NCBI GenBank assembly: GCA_019113645.1
Contig: DXGZ01000132.1
Location: 1-38,337 of the forward strand
Length of the DNA: 38,337 nucleotides
Reading direction: 5' to 3'
DNA from: Candidatus Mediterraneibacter vanvlietii
GTDB lineage: Bacteria; Bacillota; Clostridia; Lachnospirales; Lachnospiraceae
Within the stretch, counting starts at the first letter, position 1; each line of letters opens with the position of its first letter. Both the position numbers and the translations under genes were made by a program. The notes beneath the pieces were generated by a model. The model ran no database searches. It had not been told where the DNA came from and worked only from the letters and a program-made list of their open reading frames with translations. Positions 11,414-31,114 of the stretch are shown piece by piece.

Positions 11414-11485
11414 GGCGCAGTAGCCAAGTGGTAAGGCGTGGGTCTGCAACACCCTGATTCACCGGTTCAAATCCGGTCTGCGCCT
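11414..11485 (+). tRNA. tRNA-Cys (GCA anticodon)
   Basis: The seven-pair acceptor stem is GGCGCAG with CTGCGCC. The D arm is TAGCCAAGTGGTAAGGC, the anticodon loop in GTGGGTCTGCAACACCC carries GCA, and the T arm is CCGGTTCAAATCCGG. Discriminator base T73 is the identity base for tRNA-Cys. CCA is not encoded, so the cca product at 16767 would be needed to mature it. Confidence 0.95.
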
Positions 11486-14900: not shown

Positions 14901-16553
14901 ATGATAATAAGGGAATTGTACATAAAGAATTTTGGAAAGTTTTCAGAACAGCATTTCTATCTCCACGACGGCCTGCAGGTGATCAGCGGGGAGAACGAGT
15001 TCGGGAAATCGACGATCCATGCGTTTATCCGCGCGATGCTCTTCGGGCTTGAGCGGGGGAGAGGCCGCGCGGCGGTGAAGGATGATTTTACACGGTATGA
15101 ACCGTGGGACAATCCGGGATATTATGCCGGTGTGATGCGGTTTAGCTGCGGGGAAAGGAACTTCCGGCTGGAGCGGAATTTTGCCAGGGCAAACAGGCAG
15201 GTTTCCCTTGTATGTGAGGATGACGGGGAAGAGCTTTCCGTTGAGCACGGAGACCTGAACATGCTTCTCGGCGGGATGACGGGTGAACTGTTCGACAGCA
15301 CGGTGTCAGTGGGACAGCTGAAGTCGCGGCCGGGAGAGGAGCTTGCGGAAGCTCTGGAGAATTATGCGGCTGACTATCTGGAGACCGGCGGGGTGCAGAT
15401 CGATCTGAACCGGGCAGTGCAGATCCTGAAAGAAAAGAAGAAGGCTGCGGCAAGAGCGCTCAGGGAAGAGAAGGATCGGCAGGAGGACGGGCGGAGAGAA
15501 CTCCGTCAGGAATGCGCCTACCTGGAGCGGGATATGGAAGATCTGCAGCGGGAATACGAAGAGAAGCAGGGACAGATGGAACAGATCAGCAGGGCAGAAA
15601 ACGATCGGGAGAATGCAGGATGGGACAACGCTGACGGGGATTGTTCCGGGGCAGAGAAATTCTCTGCAGATGAGTCGGAAGTGAAGAAGGCAGTACAGGA
15701 GGCAGAAAATATGTCTTCGAAGAGCCTTCTTCTGGCGGGTGCGGCGGGAATTCTGATCGGCATACTGGGGCTGGTATGGAGCGGGATAACCGCAGGACTG
15801 GGTGCGTCTGGAAGCTCGCTGTCGTTTGCGGTGATTGCAGGACTGATCGGAGTGACTGGGGTTATCCTTCTGGGCTGCGGGATCGCATCGAAACTGAGGA
15901 CGAAAAACAGAAGTATCCGGGCGATACATGAAGAGAAGGTCCGGAAGGAGACGAAGGATCGGGAGGAAGCAGATAAAGAAAAAACGGCCGGGGAGAAGAA
16001 AGTGAATGAAGTCCGTCAGGAGCGAAAGCGGCTGGAATGGGAACTGACAAGGATACAGAGACAGTGGAAAGAAAAGGAAATCCGAAGAGGAAATCTGCAG
16101 GAACAAATCGATGAATTCGGTCCGGGAGAGGTGCAGAAAGCGCTGGAAAAACAGTGCCGGGCGCTTGATCTGGCGGAAGAACATCTGATCCGGGCAGGGC
16201 AGGAGATGAGCAGCAGGACGGTCGACCTGGTAAACAGGAAGGCATCGGAGATATTTGCTGAAATCACAGACGGGAAATACGCGGGACTCTTCTATGACAG
16301 AGGGAAAGGTTTCCGAGTCTGGGACGGGATGAGGCAGATCCCCGCTGAACGGCTGAGCCGCGGGACACTGGAACAGATCTGGTTTGCTTTCCGTATGGCG
16401 GGTGCGCAGGCGCTCCAGGAAGAACCAATGCCGATCATTCTGGACGAAACTTTTGCATTTTATGATGATAAAAGGACGCAATCTGCGTTAAAATGGTTGA
16501 GAGGACAAAAAAAGCAGGTTATAATATTTACCTGTCATGATGCTAGGGGCTAA
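14901..16553 (+). CDS. YhaN/SbcC-like SMC-type ATPase with two membrane segments
   Basis: The N-terminal half-domain has Walker A GENEFGKST (30-38). The C-terminal half has an ABC signature region (ERLSRGTLEQIWFAFRMA) and Walker B (MPIILDETFAFYD) with catalytic Glu. Between them are two short charged coiled coils around two hydrophobic segments, about residues 274-298 and 303-326. At 550 aa it is much shorter than Rad50/SbcC or B. subtilis YhaN, and no CxxC zinc hook is seen; the membrane hairpin stands where the coil tip would be. It is likely a membrane-tethered partner of the nuclease encoded upstream, acting in DNA end processing. The ATG at 14901 is preceded by GGCGGAAGG. Confidence 0.8.
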   Translation: MIIRELYIKNFGKFSEQHFYLHDGLQVISGENEFGKSTIHAFIRAMLFGLERGRGRAAVKDDFTRYEPWDNPGYYAGVMRFSCGERNFRLERNFARANRQVSLVCEDDGEELSVEHGDLNMLLGGMTGELFDSTVSVGQLKSRPGEELAEALENYAADYLETGGVQIDLNRAVQILKEKKKAAARALREEKDRQEDGRRELRQECAYLERDMEDLQREYEEKQGQMEQISRAENDRENAGWDNADGDCSGAEKFSADESEVKKAVQEAENMSSKSLLLAGAAGILIGILGLVWSGITAGLGASGSSLSFAVIAGLIGVTGVILLGCGIASKLRTKNRSIRAIHEEKVRKETKDREEADKEKTAGEKKVNEVRQERKRLEWELTRIQRQWKEKEIRRGNLQEQIDEFGPGEVQKALEKQCRALDLAEEHLIRAGQEMSSRTVDLVNRKASEIFAEITDGKYAGLFYDRGKGFRVWDGMRQIPAERLSRGTLEQIWFAFRMAGAQALQEEPMPIILDETFAFYDDKRTQSALKWLRGQKKQVIIFTCHDARG

Positions 16554-16590
16554 AGGTCATGCGTTTCATGCTTGCATGAAAAAGCATGAC
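16551..16590. repeat. Nested palindrome (TCATGC/GCATGA type)
   Basis: TTTCATGC (16564-16571) pairs with GCATGAAA (16574-16581) inside an outer AAAGgTCATGC with GCATGACTTT (16584-16593), starting in the ATPase stop codon. The TCATGC/GCATGA core followed by CCCGT also occurs at 20166-20191, so it may be a diverged relative of that repeat. Confidence 0.5.
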
Positions 16591-16641
16591 TTTGAGACCC
16601 GTAAAAACATGAGAAAGTAGCCCATTAGGGCGGATTTCGAA

Positions 16642-16716
16642 TGTTTTTAGGATTGCGGGAGCATGCAAGGCGGAGCAATCCGTAGCAGCATAGGGGGCAA
16701 AAGTCCTTTTGCCCCC
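16642..16716 (+). terminator. Two hairpins after the YhaN-like gene
   Basis: GGATTGC pairs with GCAATCC (about 16651-16682). Then GGGGGCAAAAG (16693-16703) pairs with CTTTTGCCCCC (16706-16716) around TC, an 11-bp near-loopless stem. No T tract follows, so termination is not assured; it may equally be a repeat. Confidence 0.45.
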
Positions 16717-28767: not shown

Positions 28768-28806
28768 ATTTTAATGAATGCCATCTGACAGATGGCATTT
28801 AAAATG
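28768..28806. terminator. Long hairpin between the GH13 and pyridoxal kinase genes
   Basis: AATGCCATCT (28777-28786) pairs with AGATGGCATT (28790-28799). The stem extends with ATTTTAA and TAAAAT, and A/T runs flank it on both sides. It could end transcription either way or attenuate the kinase gene, whose start lies 28 bases on. Confidence 0.55.
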
Positions 28807-28833
28807 GATATCAACTGGACAGAATGGTTTATT

Positions 28834-29706
28834 ATGACGAAAAAAATAGCAGTTATTAATGACCTGTCCGGCTTTGGAAAATGTTCGCTGACGGCGGCAA
28901 TTTCGGTTATCGCCTCCATGGGGGTGCAGCCATGTCCGCTTCCGACAGCGATTCTGAGCGCACAGACAGGTTTCCCAAGTTATTTCTATGATGATTATAC
29001 GGACAGAATGGACGCGATCAGCGCGGAGTGGAAGAAGATGAATGTCCGTTTTGACGGGATTTATACCGGATTCTTATCCGGGAGAACACAGATCGGGAAG
29101 GTGATGAGCTTTCTCGATACATTTTATAAGGACGATACGTTTCTTCTTGTGGATCCGGTTATGGGGGACAATGGAGAGCGGTTTTCCATATTCAGTTCCG
29201 AATTCCAGCAGGAGATGAAGGAACTGACGGCGCGCGCGGATATCGTCACGCCGAATCTGACCGAGCTCTGCCTGCTGACCGGTGAGGACAGCCGTCTGGC
29301 TGCAGATATCGCGAATGAGAAAGAAGCACTGGAAACAGCGAAACAGATGGCAGGAGAGCTGATGGCAGGAGGAACCGGAGAAGTCGTTGTCACCGGCATG
29401 CGCGTGACAGACAGCAAGACCGGGGAAGAAAAGATGGGGAACCTGGCAGTGACGAGAGAAGCGGCGGTATTCTCAACGTTCCCGCTTGTGGGCGGGAGCT
29501 ATTCGGGAACGGGAGATCTGTTTGCATCCGTAGTTGCCGGAGGAAGAGCCCGGGGAGACTCTCTGGAGGACAGTGTAAAACTCGCCGGGGAGATGATCGG
29601 AAAAGCCATCGCAGACTCCGTACGCGGGAACGTGCCAAGAGATGAAGGGGTAGACTACGAGAAGTATCTCTGGATGCTGAATAATCCATCTTTCTGTAAC
29701 AGATAA
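28834..29706 (+). CDS. Pyridoxine/pyridoxal/pyridoxamine kinase
   Basis: The 290-aa ribokinase-fold enzyme phosphorylates B6 vitamers for PLP salvage. The N-terminus (MTKKIAVINDLSGFGKCSLT) is typical of PdxK/PdxY. Others seen are LVDPVMGDNGE, TPNLTELCLLTGE and the anion hole and base GSYSGTGDLFAS. The start at 28834 fits the family; a frame open from 28792 would add a leader read through the hairpin. No good Shine-Dalgarno site is seen, so initiation is uncertain. It is the last plus-strand gene before the structured region at 29713. Confidence 0.88.
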   Translation: MTKKIAVINDLSGFGKCSLTAAISVIASMGVQPCPLPTAILSAQTGFPSYFYDDYTDRMDAISAEWKKMNVRFDGIYTGFLSGRTQIGKVMSFLDTFYKDDTFLLVDPVMGDNGERFSIFSSEFQQEMKELTARADIVTPNLTELCLLTGEDSRLAADIANEKEALETAKQMAGELMAGGTGEVVVTGMRVTDSKTGEEKMGNLAVTREAAVFSTFPLVGGSYSGTGDLFASVVAGGRARGDSLEDSVKLAGEMIGKAIADSVRGNVPRDEGVDYEKYLWMLNNPSFCNR

Positions 29707-29712
29707 GAATCC

Positions 29713-29898
29713 GTTTACAGAGCAATATCATAACGCAAAACCGTTCCGCTCTACCTCAAAAATTTGGGCGGATGTAACAAAAAAGCCAGATGTGCGTCAA
29801 ATACGACGACTTCATCTGGCTTTTTTTAACATCCGGCTCAAATGTTTTTCGGAACGCTCTCACTTAAAGTTTTGCTTATATGATACCGCTCTGTAAAC
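29713..29898 (-). repeat. Structured element A (186 bp, first arm of an inverted pair)
   Basis: The ends GTTTACAGAGC (29713-29723) and GCTCTGTAAAC (29888-29898) are perfect complements. Inside are 7-bp stems GCAAAAC/GTTTTGC (29735-29741 with 29869-29875) and CGTTCCG/CGGAACG (29742-29748 with 29850-29856). A 12-base one-sided bulge lies at 29857-29868. The apex is a separate stem, GGATGT to ACATCC and GCCAGATG with CATCTGGC (29785-29792, 29813-29820), with A and T runs: a bidirectional terminator. The loop strands recur inverted in element B. Confidence 0.8.
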
Positions 29899-30027
29899 TG
29901 GGCTAATCCAAATCAGAAAGGTAGATTTTCAGCATCCACACCGCTAATAGAAGCTGCCTGCGGCAGCCTTTCTTTTTTGATGGGACTGCTGAAAAAGCCG
30001 TTCTTTCTGACAGGGATAAACAAGTTT
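29895..30027. repeat. Structured element C (hairpin between A and B)
   Basis: Successive pairings are AAACT with AGTTT (29895-29899, 30023-30027), ATCC with GGAT, TCAGAAAG with CTTTCTGA (29913-29920, 30003-30010), TTTTCAGCA with TGCTGAAAA (29926-29934, 29987-29995), and GCTGCC with GGCAGC (29953-29958, 29962-29967) followed by TTTCTTTTTT. The apex is a good plus-strand terminator. C abuts A and B with no spacer. Confidence 0.65.
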
Positions 30028-30201
30028 CCGGTTCTGTGTCATATAAGCAAAACTTCAAGTGAGAGCGTTCCGAGAATCGTTGGTTCTGCCTGTTAGTCAA
30101 AGCATGTAGGAGTGCCTTTGCACGAGTATATGCTTTGGCGTTACAGGCATTCCAACAGTCGAGGTAGAGCGGAACGGTTTTGCGTTATGACACAGAGCCG
30201 G
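30028..30201 (+). repeat. Structured element B (174 bp, inverted counterpart of A)
   Basis: The outer stem CCGGTTCTGTG with CACAGAGCCGG (10 pairs plus one G.U) differs from that of A but still pairs. The strands 30039-30073 and 30161-30190 match A inverted in 34 of 35 and 30 of 30 bases. The internal stems GCAAAAC/GTTTTGC (30047-30053, 30177-30183) and CGTTCCG/CGGAACG (30066-30072, 30170-30176) and the bulge TTCAAGTGAGAG are kept. The apical hairpin (about 30081-30154, GCCTGT with ACAGGC and CAAAGCAT with ATGCTTTG) is unrelated to that of A. Confidence 0.8.
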
Positions 30202-30250
30202 AAACGGATGATTATCTATTATCTATATTAGAAAGATGGATTTCTCAGCA

Positions 30251-31114
30251 TCACTTCGTCAGGACTTCGATACCGTCTTCTTTGACGAGCACCATATACT
30301 CTATCTGTGCGGAGAGTCCGTCATCGATTGTGTAAACGGTCCAGTCGTTGTCTTCGTCTACGTAGAAGTCCGGGCTTCCCTCGTTGATCATGGGCTCGAT
30401 GGTGAACATCATGCCGGGAACGAGGAGCATTTCGCTTCCTTTCGGCGTTACATAGCTTACGAAAGGATCTTCGTGGAAGGCGAGGCCGATGCCGTGGCCG
30501 CCGATTTCTTCTACAACGGAATAACCGTTAGCCTTTGCGTGAGTATTGATCGCATCCGCGATATCGCCGAGATGTCCCCATGGTTTCGCTGCTGCGAGTC
30601 CCAGTTCCACACACTCTTCTGTGACGCGGATGAGTCGCTCGGCGCGGTCGGAGATTTTCCCCATCTTGAACATACGTGACGCATCGGAAAAATACCCGTC
30701 CAGGATCGTGGATACATCCACATTGATGATATCGCCTTCCTGGAGGATAATGTTTTTGTCCGGAATACCGTGACAGATCTCATTGTTGATCGATGTGCAC
30801 ACGCTTTTCGGAAATCCCTGGTAGTTCAGGGGAGCGGGAATGCCGCCGTGTTCTTTTGTGAAATGGTATACGATCTGATCGATCTCCTCTGTGCTCATTC
30901 CGATATGGATATGTTTTGCCACTTCATCGAGCACGGCTGTGTTAAGGGCTGCGCTCTCTCTGATTTTTTCTATCTGCGCAGGTGTTTTTAATAGTTTGCG
31001 GGAGGGGACGATTTCGCCTCTCTCTTTGTGAAGAAGTATTTTTTCCTCAATGGGCATATGGCATTTTTTGTATTTTCTGCCGCTGCCGCACCAGCAAAGA
31101 TCATTTCTCTCCAT
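30251..31114 (-). CDS. map: Methionine aminopeptidase with N-terminal SEC-C zinc motif
   Basis: The 287-aa type I enzyme removes the initiator Met from new proteins. Residues 1-20 are a SEC-C motif (NDLCWCGSGRKYKKCH), a zinc knuckle thought to help ribosome docking. The catalytic core has EICHGIP, INVDVS and YFSDAS (metal Asp pair), GGHGIGLAFHEDP, FTIEPM and AQIEYMVLV, giving all five metal ligands and the catalytic His. GAGGAGATG lies before the ATG. It is downstream of the DUF1015 gene (90 bp gap) and converges on the pyridoxal kinase gene across the structured region. Confidence 0.95.
   Translation of the reverse strand: MERNDLCWCGSGRKYKKCHMPIEEKILLHKERGEIVPSRKLLKTPAQIEKIRESAALNTAVLDEVAKHIHIGMSTEEIDQIVYHFTKEHGGIPAPLNYQGFPKSVCTSINNEICHGIPDKNIILQEGDIINVDVSTILDGYFSDASRMFKMGKISDRAERLIRVTEECVELGLAAAKPWGHLGDIADAINTHAKANGYSVVEEIGGHGIGLAFHEDPFVSYVTPKGSEMLLVPGMMFTIEPMINEGSPDFYVDEDNDWTVYTIDDGLSAQIEYMVLVKEDGIEVLTK

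Follow-up and report, generated by a model that had tools for sequence, protein, structure and literature searches.

Paired facing hairpins at gene ends: a possible mobile family in the genus of Candidatus Mediterraneibacter vanvlietii

The RUP elements of pneumococcus are an example of MITEs of the IS630 family, and the attC sites of integrons contain unpaired bases in their hairpin, carry R and L boxes of the consensus RYYYAAC/GTTRRRY, and are shorter than the ~154-nt hairpin core described here. In the literature cited here, attC is an imperfect hairpin located directly after a gene, of which the bottom strand is recognised (PMC2727003), and REPs are high-copy, extragenic sequences situated 3′ of genes, between convergent or unidirectional genes (PMC3733652; PMC3116915). 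According to the same sources, REP units lie close together in opposite orientation, with termini that supply stop codons (PMC3733652), and the pair of REPs is the moving unit (PMC3116915); on grounds similar to those that would favour a structured RNA here, REPs of other bacteria have been argued to be transcribed (PMC3733652).

A comparable arrangement was found in the window, i.e. the 38,337-nucleotide stretch of contig DXGZ01000132.1 of Candidatus Mediterraneibacter vanvlietii that was analysed, in which two facing imperfect hairpins occupy the gap between the genes pdxK and map. With confidence that is about evenly balanced, we read this unit as one copy of a non-autonomous, REPIN-like mobile family in which a spacer is enclosed by a facing pair of large hairpins, or in some cases accompanied by a single one.

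The unit between pdxK and map

Both elements reported in the first-pass annotation are present at the places given there, within bounds that were too narrow, as the folds reach out to about the limits listed in Table 1. The sharing of the loop strands is likewise borne out: the A strands (29733–29757; inverted 30161–30185) are identical, and the B strands (29850–29875; 30047–30072) differ by one base. The closing stems, described as unrelated and yet paired, do pair, to 90% and 95% across 20 positions; their middle 11 positions differ, and their ends, GTTT and TCATA, are alike. The outermost arms in turn form an inverted repeat (29673–29706 versus 30219–30252, 82%), so that the hairpin pair looks like one unit. 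The earlier reading had thus recognised the fold and the possible mobility, and had missed that the pair is a single unit between two convergent gene ends.

Table 1. Features of the pdxK–map region in the window. R1 is the covariance model introduced in the next section.
Feature	Position	Strand	Evidence or remark
Pyridoxamine kinase gene pdxK	28792–29706	+	NF005491, 255.6 bits
Type I methionyl aminopeptidase gene map	30251–31114	−	TIGR00500, 272.4 bits; C-terminus EVLTK as in relatives
Whole unit	29683–30243 (about)	.	From terminus AATCCATC... to ...GGATTT; inverted termini, position relative to map stop codon
Left terminus; contains locus-specific GATGCTGA, where the pdxK codons continue	29673–29696	+	23 nt, 91% identity to right terminus
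Right terminus, inverted; overlaps map stop codon (30251–30253)	30230–30252	−	Terminus comparison
Hairpin 1 with outer arms; A-first strand sense to pdxK	29673–29938	+	Fold
Hairpin 1, R1 core	29727–29883	+	158.2 bits
Conserved A strand of hairpin 1, bulge CTCTACCTC	29728–29757	+	
Variable apical stem of hairpin 1, A and T runs on either side; terminator-like in both directions	29779–29826	+	
Conserved B strand of hairpin 1, bulge CTCTCACTTAAA	29850–29883	+	
Terminator-like hairpin with T run, in spacer between hairpins	29953–29977	+	
Hairpin 2 with outer arms; A-first strand sense to map	29985–30253	−	Fold
Hairpin 2, R1 core	30039–30191	−	150.7 bits
Conserved B strand of hairpin 2, bulge CTCTCACTTGAA	30039–30072	−	
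Conserved A strand of hairpin 2	30161–30190	−	

Fifteen pdxK loci were compared side by side. R1 hairpins were present at five of them, which were taken as occupied (G000, G005, G015, G028 and G378), and seven loci lacking the unit (L329, L331, L332, L335, L336, L337 and L343) showed by eye a terminator-like inverted repeat instead. At L339, a gap of 7 nt remained between the alignment ends. At the pdxK–map place of L338 (G375), a different element with similar termini, like AATCTGGATTTGTGGGGG, was seen on both sides, and an end resembling AATCTGGATTTGTGGGGG follows pdxK in L340 (G014). The EVLTK tail of map is retained throughout the five occupied species, and the map stop codon looks native. 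In the window, we infer that the unit codes for the last eight residues of pdxK (NNPSFCNR, after the native WML) and for its stop codon.

The terminator-like hairpin of the spacer is weak evidence on its own, as one was found and shuffles lead to an expectation of 0.9. In a permissive scan run with no shuffle control, 17 of 18 units had some stem that is followed by a T-rich stretch when read in one direction or both. The unit would thereby terminate both flanking genes.

On the unit and in 20 further loci, no Rfam family reached its gathering score (the two matches in the window were both located elsewhere), in agreement with the earlier statement that no named RNA family fits, and the weaker Rfam matches were all far below gathering scores. 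The window also contains a Clostridiales-1 RNA (RF01699, 128 bits) at 16538–16690, and a tRNA at 11414–11485.

Fold, dispersal and position at gene ends

Both hairpins fold far better than shuffled sequence, with z-scores of −13.8 and −9.7 for the A-first strands and −12.4 and −10.0 for the reverse strands; for each of the four strands, none of 200 shuffles folded as well. An alignment of 58 copies had a mean column identity of 74%, so the copies are not mere whole-length duplicates. These copies were chosen from 78 raw pairings by an A–B strand spacing of 80–95 nt, hence their narrow spacing of 87–92 nt is partly a matter of choice; L054 is a real copy with a strand spacing of 34. RNAalifold on the 58 copies returned double changes in 34 of 40 pairs. 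In a 54-pair structure voted from single-sequence folds, 90.2% of the cells were paired and 38 of the 54 pairs had double changes, with a covariation score of 0.404 compared to 0.129 when shuffled and at most 0.128 when slid.

The covariance model R1 (154 model positions) was built from the 58 copies, and the best 150 of 173 matches, 129 of them distinct, were aligned by fitting to it. In this wide set, double changes were found in 44 of 54 pairs, and covariation among the 129 distinct copies, as aligned to R1, was 0.565 versus 0.164 after shuffling. Pairing in helix 2 was down to 75.6%. Two genomes, G027 and G004, contributed 67 of the 150 aligned matches, and the hairpin counts are therefore not independent. 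The stems covary around conserved one-sided bulges, and the stems of the further copies pair. On the basis of these alignments, the folded shape is kept while much of the sequence has changed, which upholds the proposal of selection on a folded strand, covariation exceeding that of the shuffles.

By DNA similarity, matches were obtained in 21 of 61 genomes, every one within the genus, and by R1 in 44 of the 58 genus genomes, with up to 52 candidates scored per genome; the predicted further copies in related genomes thus exist. In G027, which is complete in one contig of 2.7 Mb, 66 R1 hairpins were identified at an E-value of 0.01 or better (150 candidates scored). Hairpin matches numbered 16 in G000, 35 in G004, 30 in G036 and 22 in G015. 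Contig ends cut or closely bordered many of the matches of G005 and several of those of G036. Family-wide, with one genome per genus and 10 candidates scored in each, four of 299 genomes matched, including the genome of the window. The three others scored 26–53 bits with similar cores, CGCTTTACCTC, CGCTCTACCTC or CGCTTCTCCTC, and CGGAACGCT, as judged from six alignments, fitted to the R1 model, and one sequence.

Hairpin neighbours within 1 kb of each other in G027 faced each other in 28 of 28 cases; within 3 kb, 31 were facing, three were back to back and one was in tandem, and three hairpins stand alone. Units of ~760 bp at different places in G027 share 88–97% identity and the same ends, AAATTTGTAKTTGTTGG, and those of G004 are ~680 bp long with ends ATTYGTGTTTGTT. 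In the genome of the window, there are in addition units with a single hairpin, which are ~310 bp long and have termini near AATCTGAGTTTG. Units devoid of inserted genes span about 310–960 bp. Such dispersal would be expected of the mobile hairpin suggested earlier, with near-identical units at different places among the 66 hairpins of G027.

Plasmids and phages gave no match to the unit of the window, and viral contigs gave three matches to a 17-base pattern, none with the partner strand. In genome contigs, the same pattern matched at least 117 stretches; 20 of 28 inspected loci share one non-genus stretch lacking the partner strand, and these were set aside as chance. An open-access literature search returned no title or abstract start that describes such an element.

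Several hairpin pairs enclose genes. Flanked by acyltransferase and AGCS symporter genes, the facing hairpins of L046, L356 and L357 (G007, G377 and G361) enclose different genes, i.e. one for a protein with a sub-threshold Rce1-like match, one for a DUF2000 protein with a similar sub-threshold Rce1-like match, and a RelB/ParE-type pair, respectively. At the 3′ side of one CoA activase gene (L047, L048; G019, G020) the hairpins enclose ~1 kb or ~6 kb, the latter with transporter-like genes by eye.

Gene ends, i.e. those of same-strand open frames of at least 100 codons, were looked for within 160 nt of 137 hairpins (11 more were skipped for short flank). One was located on the A side in 110 cases and on the B side in 27, compared to 173 of 600 random intergenic positions in a G027 sample. 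The A side of 27 of the 137 hairpins had no called gene end. In the 10 units of G004, the stop codon was situated at −7 to 0 for 17 of 20 ends; in G027, 24 of the 53 called ends (64 examined) were at 0 or −1, a count based on hand-corrected outer ends and a weak frame test of 35 codons.

Convergent neighbours on both sides were recorded for 16 of 32 units in G027, with four mispaired ends of 313–316 bp kept in the count as units. Among the flanks in G027, five or six are parts of copies of one Rpn gene. In G004, the script counted 9 of 10 units, one of them only by way of a frame that stops 57 nt within the unit. As background, a crude gene caller applied to a 400 kb sample of G027 gave 308 pairs of neighbouring genes, of which 42 were convergent. 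Near-identical copies thus occur at different places, and their stems covary. The majority of the hairpins examined come after a gene end, to which their orientation is fixed, and many units fill the whole gap between the stop codons of two convergent genes.

Unoccupied convergent gaps in the 400 kb sample were at least 24 nt long in 38 of 39 cases, with a median of 139. Given these long gaps and the pdxK–map comparison, many occupied sites seem to lack their native DNA as far as the stop codons. Its removal may have come with insertion or by later deletion; the borders T/AA, TG/A and TAG/ (slash at the junction) would also fit a deletion halting where the stop codon must stay. Insertion itself was not observed, as no target duplication was seen at the units and there was no same-species empty site.

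Strand asymmetry and competing explanations

On the A-first strand, which is sense to the upstream gene, A.C mismatches exceeded G.T mismatches by 92 to 28 in 50 representatives of 90% clusters, and by 231 to 61 in all 129 distinct copies from the best 150 of 173 matches. By cluster, 32 had more A.C, six had fewer and 12 were tied, and the ratio in the genus was 3.3 with a bootstrap interval of 2.3–5.2. Outside helix 2, the trend was kept in the largest group (A.C 44 versus G.T 11 in 41 clusters), and the G036 group had three of each. Twelve distant relatives were reversed, with 11 A.C and 17 G.T.

An A.C mismatch on the A-first strand corresponds to G.U on the opposite strand, which suggests that the folded strand is the one opposite to the mRNA of the upstream gene. 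The functional folded strand would accordingly be that one, as RNA or as single-stranded DNA; this is a lead and not proof, since the 12 distant relatives go the other way. For RNA made from each strand, as had been suggested in the first-pass annotation, the asymmetry of 92 to 28 gives no support, pointing instead to one functional strand.

For a mobile family, a putative trans-acting recombinase or transposase may recognise the folded single strand via the conserved bulges, the recognised strand running outward, opposite to the upstream mRNA. Either the insertion itself or subsequent deletion would strip away the native intergenic DNA as far as the stop codons, and the unit may be tolerated at gene ends because its own terminator-like stems come along. 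A bolder version, which we put forward only tentatively, is a new class of DNA recombination element: the hairpin would be a folded single-strand site read opposite to the mRNA through two pseudo-symmetric bulges, and a putative recombinase would place units from stop to stop, removing the native terminator, by which gene ends would gradually be taken over.

The same covariation, conserved internal loops and location after gene ends could be explained by a structured RNA, in which case the hairpin would function at the RNA level, within a 3′ UTR or as an antisense RNA, and its spread would be a secondary matter. We consider this rather unlikely, as a 3′ UTR RNA should favour G.U over A.C on the strand of the upstream gene, the reverse of what the genus shows, and the sole promoter-like match near the unit was at shuffle level.

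Paired changes may also be made by self-correction of palindromes through template switching in replication, with selection on the bulges and not on the fold. At pdxK–map, locus-specific letters are common to both outer ends in the occupied species, and in the window they appear in the inner arms of the unit as well, as such correction would have it. At L299 (949–1907), the flanks just outside the unit are complementary over ~12 nt, as would follow from entry of the unit into the loop of a terminator or from lengthening of the palindrome. Self-correction should, however, leave A.C and G.T about equal, contrary to the ratio in the genus, and would presumably tend to erase conserved one-sided bulges; as the whole explanation it is distinctly unlikely.

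An integron-like attC recombination site would have a similar plan: the hairpin is imperfect, it directly follows a gene and always has the same orientation to it, its tip varies, and the bottom strand is the suspected one. That the hairpins are such sites is nevertheless improbable: copies follow ordinary genes, for instance map, and were not seen in cassette arrays, and the RYYYAAC/GTTRRRY boxes were not seen by eye in the 58-copy alignment.

Genes of the Rpn/Transposase_31 type (PF04754, 33.1 bits) were found beside or between G027 units at L275, L278, L280, L283, L284 and L300, and all six Rpn relatives of G027 sit at hairpin loci, as expected if this nuclease moved a composite element. 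Rpn relatives occur in 29 of 58 genomes. Rpn was rejected as mobiliser, and the composite element is very improbable, because no relative at an E-value of 1e-15 was found in the copy-rich genomes G000, G004, G036 and G015.

IS630 was first favoured, since two long units of G027 contain transposase genes of this family, and the inverted termini would suit a MITE. Relatives of the L277 protein, searched at E 1e-30 or better, were found in 3 of 58 genomes compared to 44 of 58 for the hairpins, and 13 of 15 scanned loci with such a transposase had no hairpin motif and no terminus. The bases before ATTTG at 64 G027 ends were taa (33), aaa (13), gaa (12) and other (6), with no consistent TA at these junctions. 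IS630 was rejected as mobiliser by the scarcity of relatives at this threshold and by the loci lacking the motif, and an IS630 MITE, largely contradicted, is the least probable explanation.

Comparison with known systems

The preferred reading is a REPIN-like mobile family. Genomes of this widespread gut genus contain as many as dozens of copies of the structured element, which appears to replace ordinary gene ends and for which no name was found. If the folded strand signals movement, the hairpins would add to integrons and REPINs another mobility system based on hairpin recognition, and a ready family for finding its enzyme. The hairpin family probably also breaks assemblies, as suggested by the matches at contig ends in G005 and G036.

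IS630 MITEs are similarly short and repeated, with inverted termini and no gene of their own; the present units differ from them in the inconsistent TA, in the rarity of transposase relatives (3/58 genomes), and in the structured subterminal hairpins. The attC sites differ in that the hairpin core alone is longer here, no boxes were seen by eye, and the hairpins stand as facing pairs behind ordinary genes, not in cassette arrays. With REPs and REPINs, the element shares high copy number (66 in G027), extragenic palindromes in inverted pairs (28/28 facing), location after and between convergent genes, and a terminus supplying the stop codon. In contrast, its core is ~154 nt long, compared to 20–40 bp for REPs, and has one-sided bulges and covarying stems. 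The GTAG or CGTC tag of REPs is, by eye, not common to the termini of the three subfamilies, AAATTTGTAKTTGTTGG (G027), ATTYGTGTTTGTT (G004) and AATCTGAGTTTG (G000), GTAG being present in some G027 ends. In its workings the element comes closest to a REPIN, its site is reminiscent of attC, and it is assigned to neither.
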